Assembly (NCBI RefSeq): GCF_016909495.1
Contig: NZ_JAFBFW010000002.1
Coordinates: 434,001 to 498,000, forward strand
Origin: Pantoea coffeiphila
Lineage (GTDB): Bacteria > Pseudomonadota > Gammaproteobacteria > Enterobacterales > Enterobacteriaceae
Reading direction: 5' to 3'
Length of the DNA stretch: 64,000 nt
In this document: one piece after another, positions 52,038 through 59,464 of the stretch
Position numbering within the stretch: position 1 is the stretch's first letter
Layout: each line of letters opens with the position of its first letter
Notes under the pieces: model-generated
Seen by the model: the letters and a program-made list of their open reading frames with translations, nothing else
What the model was told of the DNA's origin: nothing
Database searches by the model: none
Translations under genes and position numbers: made by a program

Positions 52038-52250
52038 GTGATTAAAATGTTAAGGTGTGGACAATGTGGCAGTACAAAATTCCTCTTTACCGTAGGCAAC
52101 AGCAGCGGTGGGCATCACGGTGCGATTTGCGCCTGCTGTCGTAAACAGCTAAACAGTCAGGATACTGGCGCCGGTTTATCCATCCTTTCCAGAGCCTTAT
52201 CCACAGCGCTTGCCGAAAAAGTTCTTAATCAAGCTTTAAACAAACAGTAA
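52038..52250 (+). CDS. Zinc-ribbon-like mini-protein, 70 residues
   Basis: Starts at GTG 52038, with AGGGAGG five bases upstream. An in-frame ATG at 52047 would be too far from that site. MLRCGQCGSTKFLFTVGNSSGGHHGAICACCRK holds two cysteine pairs, CGQC (about 7-10) and CACC (about 31-34), as in a small zinc ribbon. The C-terminal half (about 45-70) is a predicted helix. Family not recognised. It may act in transcription or translation, as many lone zinc ribbons do, but that is a guess. Confidence 0.65.
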   Translation: MIKMLRCGQCGSTKFLFTVGNSSGGHHGAICACCRKQLNSQDTGAGLSILSRALSTALAEKVLNQALNKQ

Positions 52251-52344: not shown

Positions 52345-52371
52345 TTGAAAATATCATTCAGAACTTATAAT
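52345..52371 (+). promoter_or_regulatory. Candidate promoter of the + strand accessory operon
   Basis: TTGAAA (52345-52350), 15 bases, and a perfect TATAAT (52366-52371). The spacing is short. A 23-codon leader frame follows at 52419. Confidence 0.35.
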
Positions 52372-52418
52372 TCCTTTGTGAATTAAAATACAATTCGTGC
52401 CTTTTAAAGGGTGATTGC

Positions 52419-52490
52419 ATGCTGAATGGTTTATGTGCCAAGCCCGTTTATGTCTTATTTACCCTGCTTATTATAGACTGCCTCCGTTAA
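52419..52490 (+). CDS. Possible leader peptide, 23 residues
   Basis: MLNGLCAKPVYV then a hydrophobic stretch ending IIDCLR. AAAGGGTG lies about 6 bases before the ATG, a good ribosome-binding site. It precedes the HAD gene by 65 bp and would be in the same transcript. It could be a leader peptide or a tiny membrane protein. I see no attenuator hairpin after it. Confidence 0.4.
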   Translation: MLNGLCAKPVYVLFTLLIIDCLR

Positions 52491-52555
52491 TTAATTGATC
52501 ATTCTCCATATCTGTTCAACACCGTATTTATCAAATCAACCGTCGGACGCTATAT

Positions 52556-53275
52556 ATGAAAAAGCAGGGATTATCCGGCATTATCACGCGCACGGATTCA
52601 CACTGGATTATTGTTTGTGATTTTGATGGCACAATTAGTTGTGCTGATGTCACTGATACATTAATGGAAAAACTGGGTCATCCTGACTGGCAATTATTGG
52701 AGAAACGCTGGATAAATGCCGAAATAGGCTCCAGAGAGTGTCTGAGTGGGCAAATATCATTACTTGATGCTTCTCGCCAGCAGATAGATGCCTGCCTGGA
52801 TCAAATCAAAATCGATCCTGAGTTTTGCCGGTTTGCCCGATGGGCGAAAGCTGAGGCGATACCGCTTTATGTCGTCAGTGATGGTCTTGATTATGCGATC
52901 GAACATATCTTACGCAACAACAATATTGCTGGTCTGCCGGTGATTGCTAACCATCTTGAACAGGTAAGTGACCGGGGCTGGCGCATCAGCTTTCCGCATT
53001 TTTCCCCTGACTGCCAATATGCAAGTGGCACCTGCAAATGCCGGGTGGCGCAAATGTTAAATTACGACGAATTTATCGCCATAGGCGACGGGCGATCCGA
53101 TTTTTGCGTGGCCTCCATAGCCGATCATGTACTGGCCAAAAAAAGTTTGCTGACTCATTGCCAGAAGGCGGGAATTCCACATACACCGTTTAACAGTTTT
53201 CGAGAAGCACGTGCCTGCCTTGAACGACTGCTTGTAAAAGAATCACTGCTGATCCCATCTCAGGAGATCTCATGA
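52556..53275 (+). CDS. HAD-superfamily phosphatase (HAD-IB, MtnX/SerB-like)
   Basis: A 239-residue phosphatase. Motif I is VCDFDGTISCADVTD with nucleophile Asp22 and acid/base Asp24, motif II VVSDG (106-110), the Lys motif GTCKC (Lys161) and motif III IGDGRSDFCVA (176-186). The layout resembles MtnX-type and phosphoserine-phosphatase-like HAD-IB enzymes that act on small phosphorylated metabolites. It is the first of five genes coupled by 4-base overlaps. No clear Shine-Dalgarno precedes the ATG. The substrate is unknown, and no other methionine-salvage gene is nearby. Confidence 0.8.
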   Translation: MKKQGLSGIITRTDSHWIIVCDFDGTISCADVTDTLMEKLGHPDWQLLEKRWINAEIGSRECLSGQISLLDASRQQIDACLDQIKIDPEFCRFARWAKAEAIPLYVVSDGLDYAIEHILRNNNIAGLPVIANHLEQVSDRGWRISFPHFSPDCQYASGTCKCRVAQMLNYDEFIAIGDGRSDFCVASIADHVLAKKSLLTHCQKAGIPHTPFNSFREARACLERLLVKESLLIPSQEIS

Positions 53276-54117
53276 TCGCAAAGCACGACTATTTGCTGCC
53301 TGCCGGGCGGATCGGCGTGCTACTGATCCATGGGCTCACGGGAACCCCTGTTGAAATGCGTGGCGTTGCTCGTGAATTTCATCGCGCGGGATATACCGTC
53401 TATGCCCTGCAGCTTGCCGGGCACTGTGGCAGCGTTGAAGACCTGATAGCTACCCGTTGGCAGGACTGGTATCAAAGCGTGATCGACGGCGCAGACATGC
53501 TGCGCAAACAGGTTGATACGCTTTTCGTTTGTGGCCTCTCGATGGGAGCGGTACTGGCATTAAAATATACCGCGTCTCACCCCAACGAAGTCGCAGGCGT
53601 ACTGGCCTATAGCGTGACGTTTCGCTACGACGGGTGGAGCATTCCGCCACTCTCACGCTTTGCCGCGCCCTGGCTACTTCCGCTGGCTGGAATGCTAAAT
53701 GTGGGTCGCCACAAAATGTTTAATGAAGAACCGCCTTACGGTATTCAAAACGAAGTGCTGAGAAAAAAAATCGCCGACAAAATGCAAGGTGGTAACAGCG
53801 CTGAAGCAGGTCTGCCGGGTAACCCATGGCCTTCACTCAACGAATTTTTGCTGCTATCGCGAAACGTCCGCCGCAAATTACGCCATATTCACACCCCCTG
53901 CCTACTGTTACATGCCAGCAACGATGATATTTCTCATCGCCGTAATGCAGAACTGGTGCGTGATACCGTCAGTGGTCCGGTGGAAATGGTACTGCTCCCC
54001 AATAGCTATCATATGATTACTATCGATAACGATCGGCAGGAGTTATTTCAACGTTCGATTGCATTCATTCGCCGCTATAGCGTTAACACGGCGCTTACGC
54101 TGAGTGATGCACTATGA
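53272..54117 (+). CDS. Alpha/beta-hydrolase, carboxylesterase-like
   Basis: A 281-residue Est30/monoacylglycerol-lipase-like hydrolase. The oxyanion block VLLIHGLTGTPVEMRG lies at 16-31, the nucleophile elbow in CGLSMGAVLAL with Ser90, the acid near HASNDDISH (about 223-231) and the His in LPNSYHMITID (about 245-255). It is coupled by 4-base overlaps to the HAD gene before and the half-size transporter gene after it. It might release or transfer an acyl or ester group in the pathway. No family name can be given. Confidence 0.8.
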   Translation: MIAKHDYLLPAGRIGVLLIHGLTGTPVEMRGVAREFHRAGYTVYALQLAGHCGSVEDLIATRWQDWYQSVIDGADMLRKQVDTLFVCGLSMGAVLALKYTASHPNEVAGVLAYSVTFRYDGWSIPPLSRFAAPWLLPLAGMLNVGRHKMFNEEPPYGIQNEVLRKKIADKMQGGNSAEAGLPGNPWPSLNEFLLLSRNVRRKLRHIHTPCLLLHASNDDISHRRNAELVRDTVSGPVEMVLLPNSYHMITIDNDRQELFQRSIAFIRRYSVNTALTLSDAL

Positions 54118-54470
54118 GCCACCTCACCCTGATATTGTGGTTACTGAATATACTTGTCGACAGCCTGGGCCAGCTCTCATTTAAAGCGGCAGCCAGCGGC
54201 AGCGTACACTATGAAGGACTGCAACAGTGGCGATATATGCTGCGACGGCCGTGGCTTTGGCTGGGTATGGCATGTTATATCCTGGAGTTTTTACTGTGGC
54301 TGGCCTTCCTCACGCTTGTTCCTCTCTCTGTCGGCATGCTTCTTGGCTCAACCAGCATTGTCACCATTATGCTCGCCGGGCGGATCTGGTTTAAAGAATC
54401 GCTGACCCGCTGGCGGGTAATCGGTATTTTGTTGATTTCTCTGGGCGTAGCGATAATAGGGATTAATTGA
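54114..54470 (+). CDS. SMR/DMT-type half-size transporter, first of a pair
   Basis: A 118-residue protein with four TM helices. TM1 contains LVDSLGQLSFKAAASG: Asp16 and Lys24 fall at the positions of Glu14 and Lys22 of EmrE when TM1 is aligned, with the intervening Gly conserved. It ends RWRVIGILLISLGVAIIGI, as in EmrE/ArnE-like proteins. It overlaps the next gene, a second such subunit, by 4 bases. Pairs of this kind (MdtIJ, EbrAB, ArnEF) work as heterodimers. Probably exports or flips the cluster product. Confidence 0.75.
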   Translation: MSHLTLILWLLNILVDSLGQLSFKAAASGSVHYEGLQQWRYMLRRPWLWLGMACYILEFLLWLAFLTLVPLSVGMLLGSTSIVTIMLAGRIWFKESLTRWRVIGILLISLGVAIIGIN

Positions 54471-54871
54471 TGAAACGTTTCTACATTGTTGGTTTCCTCG
54501 CACTGATGATTTTCGACACGCTGGCGCAGATCAGTTTTAAGGCAGCGGCTATCCATGCATTTCCACTCACTATGGATTCCGCATGGCTTTCTCGTGTATT
54601 CAGCCATCCGTGGATTTATGGCGCATTTGTAGGCTATGCCGGTGCCTTTTTCACCTGGATGACGCTGCTGAAATACGCACCCATTGGGCCAGCCTTTGCC
54701 GCATCCCACCTTGAAATTATCAGCGTCACTTTGTTATCGGTATGGCTATTCGATGACAGCCTGACACTTATAAAAATAGTCGGTGGATTGCTGATCCTCG
54801 CCGGAATACTCTTCCTGGCAAAAGGTGAAATTGCCCATGTTAAGGCTGAAGCGGAACAGCAGGCACAATGA
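54467..54871 (+). CDS. SMR/DMT-type half-size transporter, second of a pair
   Basis: A 134-residue partner with four TM helices and a charged C-terminal tail (AKGEIAHVKAEAEQQ). TM1 holds IFDTLAQISFKAAA, with Asp16 and Lys24 at the same positions as in its partner. YAPIGPAFAASHLEIISV resembles the conserved TM3 region of DMT proteins. It overlaps its partner and the following PLP-enzyme gene by 4 bases each. Topology is probably opposite to its partner, as in known heterodimers. Confidence 0.75.
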   Translation: MMKRFYIVGFLALMIFDTLAQISFKAAAIHAFPLTMDSAWLSRVFSHPWIYGAFVGYAGAFFTWMTLLKYAPIGPAFAASHLEIISVTLLSVWLFDDSLTLIKIVGGLLILAGILFLAKGEIAHVKAEAEQQAQ

Positions 54872-56091
54872 GCCGTTCTTTTTTTCGACGCCAGCTGCCG
54901 CCAACCGCCGGATTACCGCTGTTCTGGCGCGACTTACGCCCACCTCGCGCTGATTTTTCAGATCGACTGGCGCAGGAACTGGGTATTCCTCCTCCGCTGT
55001 TAACCTGCTCAGGTACTGCTGCACTGATTATTGCCCTGCGCACCTTACAGCGGCGCCAGCCCAATCGACATCGTATTATTGTCCCCGCCTGGACCTGCCC
55101 GCTGGTAGCGCTCGCTGCATATTATTGCCCCCCGCTCAAAATCGTCCCCTGTGATATGGAGTACGGTGGCATTAATTTCGACAGGGAGCGGTTGGCGCAG
55201 CTGTGTGATTCGCAAACGCTGGCTATCGTAGTCACTCACTATGCTGGCCGGGTGGCCGATACGGCTGCCGTGATTCAAATCGCGGCTGCCCACGGCACGG
55301 CGGTCATTGAAGATGCAGCACAATCAATGGGCGCAAAAAATGCCGGTGAAAGCGTCGGCCTGGCGGGAGACATTGGCTTTTTCAGTCTGGCGATGGGAAA
55401 AGGGTTAACGACGGCAGAGGGGGGAGTGCTGTTCAGCCGCTCTACTGACCTGCAAAAAGAGATGGAACGGCAGATCGCCCGCGATTTACCCTGGCGCGCG
55501 GGCTGGGAACTGCGCCGTATCATCGAACTCTGGGGCTATCGGCTGATGTATCATCCTGACAGGCTGGACTGGGTGTATGGCCGGCAGCTCCGCAGTGCGT
55601 TAAACCGTGGCGATACGGTTACCGCCGTTGGCGATGACTTCACCGTAGACGATATCCCTTTGCACACTCTGGGCCACTATCGTCAGCGAGTCGCCGCCTC
55701 GGCTTTGACTCGATTTTCAGCCTGGCAACAGCAAAACAGTCTGCGGGCGAAGAGCAGACTCGCCGAGCTCAGGCAGCTTGCTGGCGTAACGGTCCTGCAG
55801 GATGGACCGCACCAACAGGGAGTGTGGCCATTTTTTCTTCTGCTGATGCCTGACCGAGCCTCTCGCGATCGTGCGATGCAGCACCTTTGGACAGCCGGAT
55901 TAGGCGTGACCCGGCTGTTTATTCATACATTACTCGGCTATCCCGCCGTTACGCCATTATGTCTGCCCTCCCCCATACCCAATGCGGAAGACTTTGCTGC
56001 TCGCTCACTGAGCATCAGCAACAGCCACTGGGTTGAAGACGATGATTTTGCACTGATTGTTTCCGTGCTGCGCGCGGCATTAACCGCCTGA
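54868..56091 (+). CDS. DegT/DnrJ/EryC1/StrS-family PLP enzyme
   Basis: A 407-residue PLP-dependent enzyme of the sugar-aminotransferase family. LTCSGTAALIIAL (about 45-57) binds PLP phosphate, VIEDAAQSMGA (146-156) holds the pyridine-binding Asp149, and the internal aldimine Lys178 is in FFSLAMGKGLTTAEGG. Related enzymes (ArnB, WecE, DesV) aminate keto-sugars. No nucleotide-sugar dehydratase gene lies nearby, so the substrate may differ. Last gene of the + operon. Its 3' end overlaps the convergent arginase-fold gene by 12 bases. Confidence 0.82.
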   Translation: MSRSFFRRQLPPTAGLPLFWRDLRPPRADFSDRLAQELGIPPPLLTCSGTAALIIALRTLQRRQPNRHRIIVPAWTCPLVALAAYYCPPLKIVPCDMEYGGINFDRERLAQLCDSQTLAIVVTHYAGRVADTAAVIQIAAAHGTAVIEDAAQSMGAKNAGESVGLAGDIGFFSLAMGKGLTTAEGGVLFSRSTDLQKEMERQIARDLPWRAGWELRRIIELWGYRLMYHPDRLDWVYGRQLRSALNRGDTVTAVGDDFTVDDIPLHTLGHYRQRVAASALTRFSAWQQQNSLRAKSRLAELRQLAGVTVLQDGPHQQGVWPFFLLLMPDRASRDRAMQHLWTAGLGVTRLFIHTLLGYPAVTPLCLPSPIPNAEDFAARSLSISNSHWVEDDDFALIVSVLRAALTA

Positions 56092-56976
56092 AGCTCGCTG
56101 TACAAAAGTCAGCAGCTGTTGATTAAGACGGTTTTGCGAACGCTGCCATTCAGCAGCTTCACTGGCCGATATCAACTGCTGGCCATCACCGGCGCTTAAC
56201 CAGCGTTTGAGGCGGCTGTGATACTCACATGATGAGACTTCTCCGGTGATGTCCATTCCCACCAGCCGATTGGCACAGGCCTGAATCAGTAATTCCAGAT
56301 GTTTTAGCTCAAAACATCCCTGATCCCAGTTGGTTTGTACTACCTGCTTGCTCAGAACATCTTTATCCAGGGACAGATAAACCGGATCGCCGCTTAGCTG
56401 ACGTAAAAATGCCGACAGCAAATTATCCGGATTATCAAAACGGTGGTTACACTTCCCTGCACCCAGCCAGTTAAGCCACCGGGTATCCACGCCGATGCTC
56501 CAGTAGTGCAGCTTCTTAGATAACAGAGGGCGCAGATGATTTTCCCAGGCGTGACTCAGACCAATATCGGATGAACAGATACCCAGCACGTGTATTTGAC
56601 TAATCTGCGGCAAACGGCTGGCATGATATACCCAGGAGCCACAGTGGATGCCGAAAGGATAGAGCATATTATCCGGATGATTATCGCAGATAATCAGCTG
56701 CACCGGGCGGTCCGCTGGCAGACGCTGTAACAGCAAATAGCTGAGATGGTGGTAGTCCCCACTTCCGGTGAAAACGCAGCCATAGCGATCGGGCAACAGG
56801 TCCCGGCTGGCGGCCATTAGCTTTCGCCAGTCGCCCCAGCTGGCCCCAAAGCGGACCCGCTGCTGCCAGTCCGACAGCGGCAGCACTGTTGCCCGATCCA
56901 GTCCGGCCACCGAACCATCGAAATCCAGCACCAGTGGCCGATCTTCTGCCGTCAGCCAGGGGGAGGATCGGACCAC
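56080..56976 (-). CDS. Arginase/ureohydrolase-fold protein (UPF0489-like)
   Basis: A 298-residue protein with arginase-type metal motifs: GDYHH (74-77 region), DNHPD (Asp98, His100, Asp102), SLDKDV (Asp204, Asp206) and MDITGE (Glu246). These correspond to the binuclear Mn ligands of ureohydrolases. PLVLDFDGSVAGL near the N-terminus is typical of the UPF0489-like branch rather than true arginase. GTG at 56976 has GAGGGGG seven bases upstream. The gene starts inside the end of the GNAT gene (25-base overlap). Likely a C-N hydrolase acting on a guanidino, amidino or acylamino group. Substrate unknown. Confidence 0.72.
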   Translation of the reverse strand: MVRSSPWLTAEDRPLVLDFDGSVAGLDRATVLPLSDWQQRVRFGASWGDWRKLMAASRDLLPDRYGCVFTGSGDYHHLSYLLLQRLPADRPVQLIICDNHPDNMLYPFGIHCGSWVYHASRLPQISQIHVLGICSSDIGLSHAWENHLRPLLSKKLHYWSIGVDTRWLNWLGAGKCNHRFDNPDNLLSAFLRQLSGDPVYLSLDKDVLSKQVVQTNWDQGCFELKHLELLIQACANRLVGMDITGEVSSCEYHSRLKRWLSAGDGQQLISASEAAEWQRSQNRLNQQLLTFVQRASGG

Positions 56977-58022
56977 TTTTTATCCCCCTCCAGATAATGG
57001 CGGAAATAGCGCACCGCTGCCCGCAGGAGCGGATTTCGCACACGCACCAGATGCCGGGTAAAGGTAAAGCTGGCACCGAGGCTGGCTTTGACTTCCGGAT
57101 CGGTCCAGCCCGCAACGTATTCCTGCAATCCCTGCTCGATGGCGTACTCCAGATTGACAAACCAGCTGACAAAATAGAGGTTAAATTTCAGCGCCAGCGA
57201 ATAGTCGAAGCCAATATACTTATCCACCAGCCGGCCCTGAAACTGATAGCAAAGGTTGAAACCAACCAGCCGATCTTCGTACCAATAGCAGAACAGTTTT
57301 CCTGCACTGTGCCGGTCCAGCAGCAAATGGTCAAAGAACTCGGCGCTAAGCAAATCAAAATGCACCTCACTCTGTTGCCACACCGAAAGATAAAACTGAT
57401 AGAGCTGAGCACGCCAGTGGGGATCTTCCAGGCGTTCTTCACCACAGTGAATCACCTCAATGCGAAGCTCATCACGGCTGCGAAGCTTGCGGCGAAGATT
57501 ACGACGCCGACTACGGGACATACGCGCCAGAAACTCATCGGTACTGGTAAAATTAATTGGAACAACCGCCAGCGCCTGCCCTTCCACACAAATGTAACCT
57601 TGCGCTTCCGCCGCCGCTATCAGGCGGCGACTGTAGTCGTTATCCGCAGCAGACAGCAGCGGCGAGGCAATGGGAAGATCTTTAATAATGGTCAGAGAAT
57701 GCTTATTACCGCAGTGGTTTTCAATCCATCGCAGCAACGCAGCCGGATCCTGCTGACGTGGCAGGCAGGCATATTCGCTGGTCGTTGCCCCAATAAAACA
57801 GGTATCCAGCGTGAGCCACTTCCGCCAGCCCGGGAAACCGGGCCAGCGGGCTAACCGCTGGCGCAGCGCGGGCTCAACGGTCGTTAACAGATCGAACCGG
57901 GTGGTAAATATCGGCAGGCCGTTTTCGGCAATCCGCACGTTAAATCCTTCAGGCGGATGGAGTGCAAACGCCGAAATAAGCCCCGCCGGTTCCAACTGAT
58001 TGACGTATCCGTCTTTCATCAT
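56952..58022 (-). CDS. GNAT acetyltransferase, BioF2/CelD-like
   Basis: A 356-residue protein with the double-GNAT appearance of the BioF2/CelD (FemAB-like) group. Visible are FTSTDEFLARMSRSRRRNLRRKLR (about 160-183), a basic helix typical of the group, then YWYEDRLVGFNLCYQFQGRLVDKYIGFDYS (about 253-282), the GNAT core strands, and LEYAIEQGLQEYVAG. Relatives transfer acyl or aminoacyl groups to amines or glycans. I took the first of the adjacent ATGs at 58022, 10 bp after the aminotransferase stop. The long upstream extension lies inside that gene and was rejected. Confidence 0.75.
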   Translation of the reverse strand: MMKDGYVNQLEPAGLISAFALHPPEGFNVRIAENGLPIFTTRFDLLTTVEPALRQRLARWPGFPGWRKWLTLDTCFIGATTSEYACLPRQQDPAALLRWIENHCGNKHSLTIIKDLPIASPLLSAADNDYSRRLIAAAEAQGYICVEGQALAVVPINFTSTDEFLARMSRSRRRNLRRKLRSRDELRIEVIHCGEERLEDPHWRAQLYQFYLSVWQQSEVHFDLLSAEFFDHLLLDRHSAGKLFCYWYEDRLVGFNLCYQFQGRLVDKYIGFDYSLALKFNLYFVSWFVNLEYAIEQGLQEYVAGWTDPEVKASLGASFTFTRHLVRVRNPLLRAAVRYFRHYLEGDKKWSDPPPG

Positions 58023-58032
58023 ATGCAGAGGA

Positions 58033-59412
58033 TTACCGCTCACGTTTTGCCCGAACCAGCAGTTGATCCAGCAGCACGATAGCCTGATCGATTTCAGCGC
58101 GACTGATCTCCAGGGATGGCGCAAAGGTGATCACGTTTTTATAGTATCCCCCCACATCCAGAACCAGTCCGGTTTTCTGCCCCTGATACTCCAGCGTACC
58201 GGAAAGGCCAATATCCACCATTTTATCGAGCAGTGCTTTATCAGGCGTGAATCCATCAGGTCCGCAGAGTTCCGCACGCAGTGCCAGACCAAGACCGTCA
58301 ACGTCACCAATCTCTTTATGCTGGCTCTGTAGCGATTTCAGTCCTTCAAGGAAATAGGCTCCGCTCTCCATAACCTGACGTTCATAATCTTTCTCTGCCA
58401 GCATATGCATCACTTCCAGGCCAACGGCGGTGCCCAACGGGTTCGAGGCAAACGTCGAGTGGGTGGAACCTACCGGGAAGGTGGTCGGATTAATCATCTC
58501 TTCACGCGCCCAGATGCCCGCCAGTGGATTAAGCCCGTTAGTCAGCGCTTTACCAAACACCAGCACATCCGGAGTAATGCCAAAGTGTTCAATCGACCAC
58601 AGCTTGCCGGTACGATAGAAGCCCATCTGGATTTCATCCACCACCAGCAGAATGCCGTGCTGATCGAGCACCTTTTTCAGCGCAGGATAGAAGTTACGCG
58701 GTGGAATGACGTAGCCGCCGGTGCCCTGCACGGGTTCGATATAAAAAGCGGCGAATTCTGCCTGCTGCGCTTTAGGGTCCCAGAGGCCGTGGTACTCGTT
58801 TTCAAACAGGCGGGCAAAATCGGCCACCAGTTTTTCCGCATATTCTTCAGGCGTCATGCCTTTTTGACGGCGGAACGGATACGGGAATGGAATAAACTGA
58901 GCGCGTTCGCCAAAGTGACCAAAGCGACGGCGATAGCGATAGCTGGAGGTAATGGATGATGCACCCAGAGTACGACCGTGATAGCCACCTTCAAAGGCAA
59001 ACATCCGGCTTTTACCGTTGCAGAAATTTCGTACCAGCTTCAGGGAATCATCAACGGACTGCGAACCGCCCACGTTAAAGTGTACTCTTCCCGGCAGGCC
59101 GAACTTACGTTCCATATCCTGAGCAATAATTTTTGACAGCTCGATTTTGGTGGGATGCAGATACTGGCTGGCCAACTGTGGCAGCCGATCGATCTGGCTT
59201 TTTAACGCATTATCGAGCCGGGTATTAGCGTAGCCAAAATTAACCGCTGAATACCACATTTGCAGATCGAGATAGGGAGTATCTTCCGCGTCAAACAGAA
59301 AGCTTCCCTGACAGCGGTCAAATATTTTCGGGGGGTTAACGTAATGAACCGTATCGCCATACGAACAATACTTCGCTTCATCCTGCAACAGCTGCTTTTC
59401 ATTAGACGTCAT
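58033..59412 (-). CDS. Class III PLP aminotransferase
   Basis: A 459-residue fold-type I aminotransferase like GabT, acetylornithine or diaminobutyrate aminotransferases. Numbering from the ATG at 59415 (one residue longer): NVGGSQSVDDSLKLVRNF (114-131) is the PLP phosphate-binding region, FEGGYHGRTLGASS the substrate loop, VVDEIQMGFYRTG holds Asp260, and VFGKALTNGLNPLAG contains the Schiff-base Lys289. I favour the second ATG at 59412 because GGAG lies 5 bases before it. First gene of the three-gene - operon, preceded by a possible promoter. Substrate unknown; an omega-amino compound is likely from the family. Confidence 0.83.
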   Translation of the reverse strand: MTSNEKQLLQDEAKYCSYGDTVHYVNPPKIFDRCQGSFLFDAEDTPYLDLQMWYSAVNFGYANTRLDNALKSQIDRLPQLASQYLHPTKIELSKIIAQDMERKFGLPGRVHFNVGGSQSVDDSLKLVRNFCNGKSRMFAFEGGYHGRTLGASSITSSYRYRRRFGHFGERAQFIPFPYPFRRQKGMTPEEYAEKLVADFARLFENEYHGLWDPKAQQAEFAAFYIEPVQGTGGYVIPPRNFYPALKKVLDQHGILLVVDEIQMGFYRTGKLWSIEHFGITPDVLVFGKALTNGLNPLAGIWAREEMINPTTFPVGSTHSTFASNPLGTAVGLEVMHMLAEKDYERQVMESGAYFLEGLKSLQSQHKEIGDVDGLGLALRAELCGPDGFTPDKALLDKMVDIGLSGTLEYQGQKTGLVLDVGGYYKNVITFAPSLEISRAEIDQAIVLLDQLLVRAKRER

Positions 59413-59435
59413 CATATCTCCTTGGCACTTTACTC

Positions 59436-59464
59436 CATATAAGTTCTGCGAGTATATCCTGCAA
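59436..59464 (-). promoter_or_regulatory. Candidate promoter of the - strand accessory operon
   Basis: On the - strand TTGCAG (59464-59459), 17 bases, TATATG (59441-59436), about 25 bp before the aminotransferase start. The region up to yohP is AT-rich, with no other feature seen. Confidence 0.4.

Follow-up and report, generated by a model that had tools for sequence, protein, structure and literature searches.

The window analysed here is a stretch of 64,000 nucleotides of Pantoea coffeiphila (contig NZ_JAFBFW010000002.1, positions 434,001 to 498,000), which sits in a 5.7 Mb genome and carries a cluster of eight genes that the original prediction had presented as two converging operons serving a single pathway with an exported product. 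The layout, the integrity of all frames and the enzyme classes are borne out by inspection of the open reading frames and by Pfam, which agrees on class for all eight proteins, only just so for ARG (22.1 bits against a cut-off of 22). The genes, with the short names used below, are:

52556..53275, + strand: HAD, a HAD-IB phosphatase, MtnX-like (PF12710/PF06888; TIGR01489; 2fea MtnX, E 1.2e-21)
53272..54117, + strand: ABH, an alpha/beta hydrolase, monoacylglycerol lipase/Est30-like (PF12146, 1.3e-24; 5xks monoacylglycerol lipase, E 5.5e-34)
54114..54470, + strand: SMR1, SMR/EamA half-size transporter 1 (PF00892)
54467..54871, + strand: SMR2, SMR/EamA half-size transporter 2 (PF00892; ATG at 54470 a possible start)
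54868..56091, + strand: DegT, a DegT-family pyridoxal-phosphate enzyme (PF01041, 1.2e-38, best stretch 28-200)
56080..56976, - strand: ARG, a ureohydrolase-fold C-N hydrolase (Pfam Arginase; ureohydrolase structure matches)
about 56952..58022, - strand: GNAT, a double-GNAT FemABX/MprF-like transferase, predicted to be aminoacyl-tRNA-dependent (PF04339/PF13480; structural matches)
58033..59415, - strand: AT3, a class III aminotransferase (PF00202, 8.4e-73)

Three junctions of the forward operon are 4-base ATGA overlaps. The overlap of SMR1 and SMR2 depends on the start of SMR2, being 4 bases only with the TTG at 54467 and 1 base with the ATG at 54470, so that the 4-base overlaps first described for the whole operon stand at three junctions and depend, at this one, on the TTG start. 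The tails of DegT and ARG share 12 bases, and with the coordinates above ARG shares 25 bases with GNAT. GNAT itself begins 10 bases past the AT3 stop, its longest frame starting at 58124. None of the eight proteins reaches an NCBIfam equivalog cut-off among the matches listed (for AT3, among the best 25 of 69).

These eight genes are one real, conserved and modular system. The whole set is present in family relatives, in Xanthomonas, in a Thermoanaerobaculia metagenome-assembled genome (MAG) and, as two blocks on one plasmid, in Bartonella sp. HY406; the recurrence of the same gene set in such distant bacteria means that the cluster is not a product of chance. The MAG was the one relative returned by a DegT query of genome contigs, and its locus, like a plasmid record of Xanthomonas sacchari, holds all eight genes together with an acyl carrier protein (ACP) and a ketosynthase (KS). 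Plasmid records of Rhizobium, Sinorhizobium and Agrobacterium carry seven genes in a single operon without DegT, adjoined by a two-component pair in all three loci inspected, and a plasmid record of Roseomonas mucosa carries a relative of the cluster whose class III aminotransferase differs (25% identity). Further relatives are present in Acinetobacter colistiniresistens, and the closest named ARG protein is that of Erwinia sp. S38 (98% identity), for which reason the bacterium is treated here as Erwinia-like. Among the genomes sampled, an AT3 orthologue was found in 10/37 of the genus, 6/369 of the class and 25/398 of the phylum, the carriers in the class and phylum samples spanning 11 family labels, and a DegT orthologue in 3/149 of the family; viral contigs yielded no AT3 relative, and nothing close to the 7.1 kb cluster turned up in E. 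coli genomes. The patchy distribution, together with carriage on plasmids, suggests horizontal movement. Rather than occurring separately in most relatives, the two operons are adjacent in most full loci, and they lie apart on the Bartonella plasmid and in one two-locus genome. A fatty acid desaturase gene was observed within the Sinorhizobium operon, between SMR1 and ABH (L008, 14676-15551).

The modularity was assessed on loci collected by AT3 or DegT queries, which gave 44 units, 36 of them uncut and kept. Six units were excluded for cuts at contig ends (L025, L050, L060, L061, L066 and L085), L051 because the fetched stretch starts inside the cluster, and L067 as a lone AT3 (55%) with no partner gene. 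The counts were completed by hand, L095 being joined to L024 and L096 to L057 (script counts before completion, of 36: SMR pair 29, GNAT 24, ARG 22, DegT 15). HAD is present in 36/36 uncut units, as is AT3 when one broken copy (L063, with an internal stop and scored absent by the script) and one non-orthologous copy (L003, 25%, scored present) are included, and these two genes are the core of the cluster. ABH is found in 33/36 units and the SMR pair in 31/36, its two members never being separated. GNAT is present in 25/36; ARG in 24/36, every time with GNAT (24/24); and DegT in 16/36, always with ARG and GNAT, being missing from 8 of the 24 units that hold these two. ACP and KS occur in 7/36, always both, and 29/36 have neither. 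Fisher tests on the uncompleted counts, uncorrected for relatedness, gave 7e-8 for ARG with GNAT and 6e-5 for DegT with ARG. The loci L064 and L065, from two genomes of a single family, are reduced to ACP, KS, HAD, AT3 and ABH; these genomes hold no ARG at E<=1e-6 and just a weak GNAT-like match elsewhere (25-26%).

In Erwinia, full and reduced versions of the cluster occupy the same chromosomal site. The genus sample includes ten genomes with AT3: three carry the full locus, six lack DegT, ARG and GNAT together, and in one a contig end cuts the locus. The reduced loci L077 and L082 additionally lack ABH and retain HAD, SMR1, SMR2 and AT3, so that the smallest version there consists of a phosphatase, an aminotransferase and an export pair. 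A search of the six reduced genomes for ARG and GNAT, DegT not included, gave neither at another place at the thresholds used. On the AT3 tree, where the cut locus L085 was labelled full owing to a GNAT fragment, the DegT-ARG-GNAT block requires four gain or loss events, of which well-supported branches force three. DegT, ARG and GNAT are an optional tailoring block that is gained or lost as a unit in Erwinia; this block on a smaller core, and the likely tRNA dependence of GNAT, are new beyond the original prediction. Three loci (L081-L083) have no pagP or gntP within the fetched stretches, which places them at another site. In genome G729 the system is split and partly duplicated: one locus (L096, contig C22) reads GNAT-ARG-SMR2-SMR1, at 57-74% to the window, and the other (L057, contig C52) reads HAD-AT3-ABH-GNAT, its GNAT being a second copy (31%). 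The AT3 of L063 (genome G659) contains an internal TGA, for which a broken copy and a sequencing error are both possible.

No other gene of the set is nearly as conserved as AT3. Its identity to the window protein is 87-97% in family loci, where the partner genes stand at 47-87%, 73-78% in six loci outside the family, where the partners stand at 29-58%, and 55-79% across other orthologous loci. K289 and the motifs YHGRT and QxTGG are invariant (22/22); judging from GabT and the ornithine aminotransferases, YHGRT presumably keeps the carboxylate-binding arginine and QxTGG presumably lacks the glutamate switch. Among solved structures, an archaeal aminotransferase and an alanine/serine racemase come closest to AT3. 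HAD belongs to subfamily TIGR01489 (105.8 bits against 81.55) and falls short of the MtnX equivalog of methionine salvage (106.1 bits against 303.2), MtnX being nevertheless its closest solved relative; D22, D24 and T26 are identical in 40/40 aligned orthologues. Since MtnX acts on a keto-phosphate, HAD and AT3 could act in concert to make an amine from a phosphorylated keto compound.

The AlphaFold2 model of GNAT (pLDDT 90.5) adopts a double-GNAT fold of the FemX/MprF type, and its best structural matches, Sbb17/Sba18, FemX and MprF, are all aminoacyl-tRNA-dependent transferases, which rank narrowly above coenzyme A (CoA) and myristoyl-CoA enzymes. The CoA-type motif [RQ]xxGx[GA] occurs, at any position, in just 5/40 relatives and 5/25 locus copies. 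K312 is invariant (40/40) and is a candidate counterpart of the catalytic lysine of FemX (K305) and DhpH-C (K329). GNAT matches PF04339 and PF13480; the FemAB family PF02388 has no match in the window's genome and matches in 3/14 control genomes. GNAT is predicted, from its modelled fold, to be aminoacyl-tRNA-dependent rather than acetylating. FemABX-type aminoacyl-tRNA-dependent transferases cap an amine in biosynthetic clusters, according to PMC12945691.

The model of ARG (pLDDT 93.9) matches ureohydrolases of several kinds, indicating an arginase fold. The predicted binuclear metal ligands H76/H77, D98, H100, D102, D204 and D206, located by motif, are present in 50/50 relatives, and the metal motifs are identical in 25/25 window and locus copies. 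All 25 copies carry GSGD(Y/F)HH and DKD-type motifs, unlike the peptide arginases of PF12640, to which ARG has no match at E<=0.001 and whose motifs, as given in PMC10028609, it lacks. ARG stands on the PF00491 side, as does KgrD, which acts on peptide-bound arginine according to PMC12703449. By its predicted fold ARG is a member of the ureohydrolase superfamily, and hydrolysis of a guanidino substrate is predicted.

In DegT, K178, E148 and D149 are identical in 15/15 sequences. Matches to known members by Pfam and profile search, the latter reaching NtdA at E 2.9e-13, are confined to the N-terminal half (about residues 25-205), and the ArnB equivalog is not reached (62.6 of 631 bits). The C-terminal half (about 205-407) lies outside the matches to known members, yet is conserved among the clusters. 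SMR1 has an acidic residue at position 16 in 32/32 aligned rows (D in 29, E in 3; the row of L050 is a mis-assigned SMR2 frame), and SMR2 has D or E at position 17 in 28/31 and N in 3/31; we take such a residue near the N terminus to be more in keeping with cation/proton antiport than with the flipping of a neutral lipid. Neither protein reaches the equivalogs ArnE (SMR1 26.1 and SMR2 18.4 of 92 bits) or ArnF (27.2 and 30.7 of 99 bits), and SMR2 stays below that of MdtJ, of the MdtIJ spermidine exporter (26.3 bits against 122). A dedicated KS was looked for in the window's genome, where six KS-like places were found, the best at 40% to the X. sacchari KS and none beside the cluster. Two KS-like genes lie close together at C2:555235-559164 and could be another biosynthetic cluster.

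It is likely that the cluster makes and exports an amine-type product, and the earlier proposal of one pathway with amine-type enzymes and an export pair is supported. We tentatively propose, at somewhat less than an even chance, that this modular cluster yields a small cationic amine, which HAD and AT3 would make, GNAT would aminoacylate, ARG would trim of a guanidine and the SMR pair would export. HAD would take the phosphate off a keto-type phosphate and AT3 would add the amine to the skeleton, in either order; ABH would cleave an ester or thioester, and the dedicated ACP and KS, where present, would alter the carbon chain. GNAT would attach an amino acid from tRNA to the new amine, for which arginine would fit, and DegT would supply a further amino group. 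As ARG occurs only with GNAT, it is suggested that ARG acts on what GNAT makes: if arginine is the donor, ARG would turn the arginyl group into ornithinyl and urea. This is the simplest chemistry that uses both enzymes, and the boldest and least certain step of the scheme. The product would likely act at or outside the envelope, either as protection against cationic antimicrobials or as an antimicrobial or signal itself; we hypothesise both the ornithinyl cap and the envelope role. Doubtful as a whole is the fuller version, in which FemABX-like arginylation of a small amine from arginyl-tRNA followed by a ureohydrolase would give an ornithinyl cap, the exported polycation would shield the envelope or kill rivals, DegT-ARG-GNAT would be exchanged as a unit and the HAD/AT3/SMR core would have moved across at least two phyla.

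Several observations weigh against this proposal. For GNAT, a Z gap of about 1 separates the model from CoA-type GNATs, which amounts to a tie; at E<=0.01 no solved relative came up in the profile search, there being only a single-sequence match to Sbb17 at 0.0018, and PF13480 presumably also includes acyl transferases. For ARG, there is no NCBIfam match, the usual guanidine-binding Glu of arginases is apparently one residue off, and the fold match leaves guanidino, formimino and other C-N substrates undistinguished; arginine as the donor is suggested only by the ARG-GNAT partnership. L062 has a weak GNAT (28%) and no ARG; in L060, dropped as cut, ARG is present and the contig ends before the GNAT side; G729 holds GNAT-ARG-SMR apart from HAD-AT3-ABH; and weak GNAT-like matches (25-35%) occur elsewhere in six genomes with GNAT-less or cut loci. 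The reduced loci persist without GNAT and ARG, and the window cluster has no adjoining two-component or MacB-type gene.

The surroundings bear on the role of the product. In the 36 loci, by counts taken by eye from similarity matches, two-component genes are found in 19/36, MipA/OmpV in 8/36 and a MacB-type exporter (FtsX, ABC and HlyD, in some with an outer membrane channel) in 7/36; the L002 and L008 sensor kinases are picked up by the QseC and PmrB models at scores below cut-off. These neighbours, which many relatives have, suggest envelope-stress control and give a hint of a role at the envelope or as an antimicrobial. The window copy is flanked by pagP on one side and, on the other, by what we take to be a GntP-type permease with otn-type genes; pagP is the only envelope-type gene that adjoins it, and is probably a local neighbour in Erwinia and no more. 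An all-against-all comparison of leftover frames, made in search of an extra conserved partner, gave a single set present in more than three family groups, kinase-like by its annotated or scanned members. A PhoP box scan of the window with up to 2 mismatches gave 13 matches against 10.05 expected, so that no PhoP signal is seen upstream, and promoter and terminator scans were at background level. For colistin, a literature search prompted by the relatives in A. colistiniresistens, covering listed entries and the openings of abstracts, gave no tie to the cluster. Between pagP and HAD lies a 70-residue open frame (52038-52250, +) with paired cysteines (CxxC...CxxC) and no Pfam match. Related small proteins stand beside the cluster in two distant lineages (L001, 13263-13655; L052, 14239-14766), that of L052 matching PepSY. 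Anti-phage defence was rejected, none of six proteins (HAD, ABH, DegT, ARG, GNAT and AT3; the SMR pair was not scanned) matching a PADLOC model.

The same chemistry could also serve a secreted antibiotic or signal, whose product would hit other cells and for which the MacB-type exporter and two-component genes would provide delivery and self-protection. This is possible, if on the unlikely side: it draws on the frequency of these neighbours, on plasmid carriage, on partners that diverge much faster than AT3, and on the origin of Sbb17/Sba18 in streptothricin-type pathways (BD-12 figures in PMC12945691), and it is at odds with a window cluster that has neither exporter nor sensor beside it, with the persistence of core-only versions and with the lack of any known bioactivity. 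We regard it as rather unlikely that the product is an amino-lipid, with GNAT as an acyltransferase using a dedicated ACP or a general acyl-ACP donor, the SMR pair flipping the product, and ABH or the occasional desaturase shaping or removing the chain. The constant pairing of ACP and KS in 7/36 units, the Sinorhizobium desaturase, the lipase-like ABH and the SMR proteins, which both score best on ArnF though far below its cut-off, would fit such a product; the slightly closer resemblance of the GNAT model to aminoacyl-tRNA enzymes, the rarity of the CoA motif, the 29/36 units without ACP or KS and the retained acidic residue of the SMR proteins would not.

The original prediction had itself offered two readings. 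A polyamine or guanidino compound is supported in part, through the ureohydrolase fold, which is confirmed. As detoxification or salvage, in which ARG would act on a free guanidino compound, AT3 would degrade an amine and the SMR pair would export the excess, it is very unlikely: the fold, the class III aminotransferase and the SMR pair are what it would call for, but no uncut unit has ARG without GNAT, 6/10 AT3-bearing genomes of the genus keep the core in the absence of ARG, and the phosphatase and ACP/KS go unexplained; free polyamine or guanidine catabolism was rejected on the tie of ARG to GNAT. Least probable is the second reading, in which an amino sugar made by DegT and carried by undecaprenyl phosphate would be flipped by the SMR pair and transferred to lipid A. 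It was rejected because, for all the DegT family, the ArnEF-like pair and the pagP neighbour in Erwinia, the set has no glycosyltransferase or nucleotide-sugar enzyme, DegT is dispensable (Rhizobium-type loci without it keep the other seven genes) and the ArnB, ArnE and ArnF scores lie far below cut-off.

The core enzyme of this biosynthesis-export cluster reaches 11 family labels, plasmids and a Thermoanaerobaculia MAG and, as AT3 is 55-97% identical across orthologous loci, one biochemical answer should apply to the majority. Should GNAT and ARG act as proposed, the cluster would use tRNA to cap molecules other than ribosomal peptides with ornithine. Because one Erwinia site carries both full and reduced loci, close relatives can be compared directly to test what the tailoring block does. 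No description of the cluster was found in the literature searched, most subscription journals being outside its reach, and no locus there matched the set, in line with the earlier statement that no described pathway is known to have it.

Among known systems, the Arn pathway also combines a DegT-family aminotransferase with a two-subunit SMR-like transporter; the eight genes include no counterpart of ArnA, ArnC, ArnD or ArnT. MprF, the lysyl-/alanyl-phosphatidylglycerol synthase, carries a membrane flippase domain that GNAT lacks, the cluster having a separate SMR pair. The peptide arginases OspR (PF12640) and KgrD (PF00491) convert an already attached arginine to ornithine, which is the job proposed for ARG, although no ribosomally synthesised peptide precursor is seen with ARG. 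Sbb17 and Sba18, of a class that includes VlmA, DhpH-C, PacB and Orf11 of BD-12, share the double-GNAT fold and are the best structural matches of GNAT, which is 17-21% identical to them and differs in having a ureohydrolase-fold enzyme as its partner. In the NTD/kanosamine operon, the aminotransferase NtdA and the HAD phosphatase NtdB make a small amino compound. The cluster shares this pairing of aminotransferase and HAD phosphatase; in it, however, the constant aminotransferase is of class III, and an export pair, GNAT and ARG are added.

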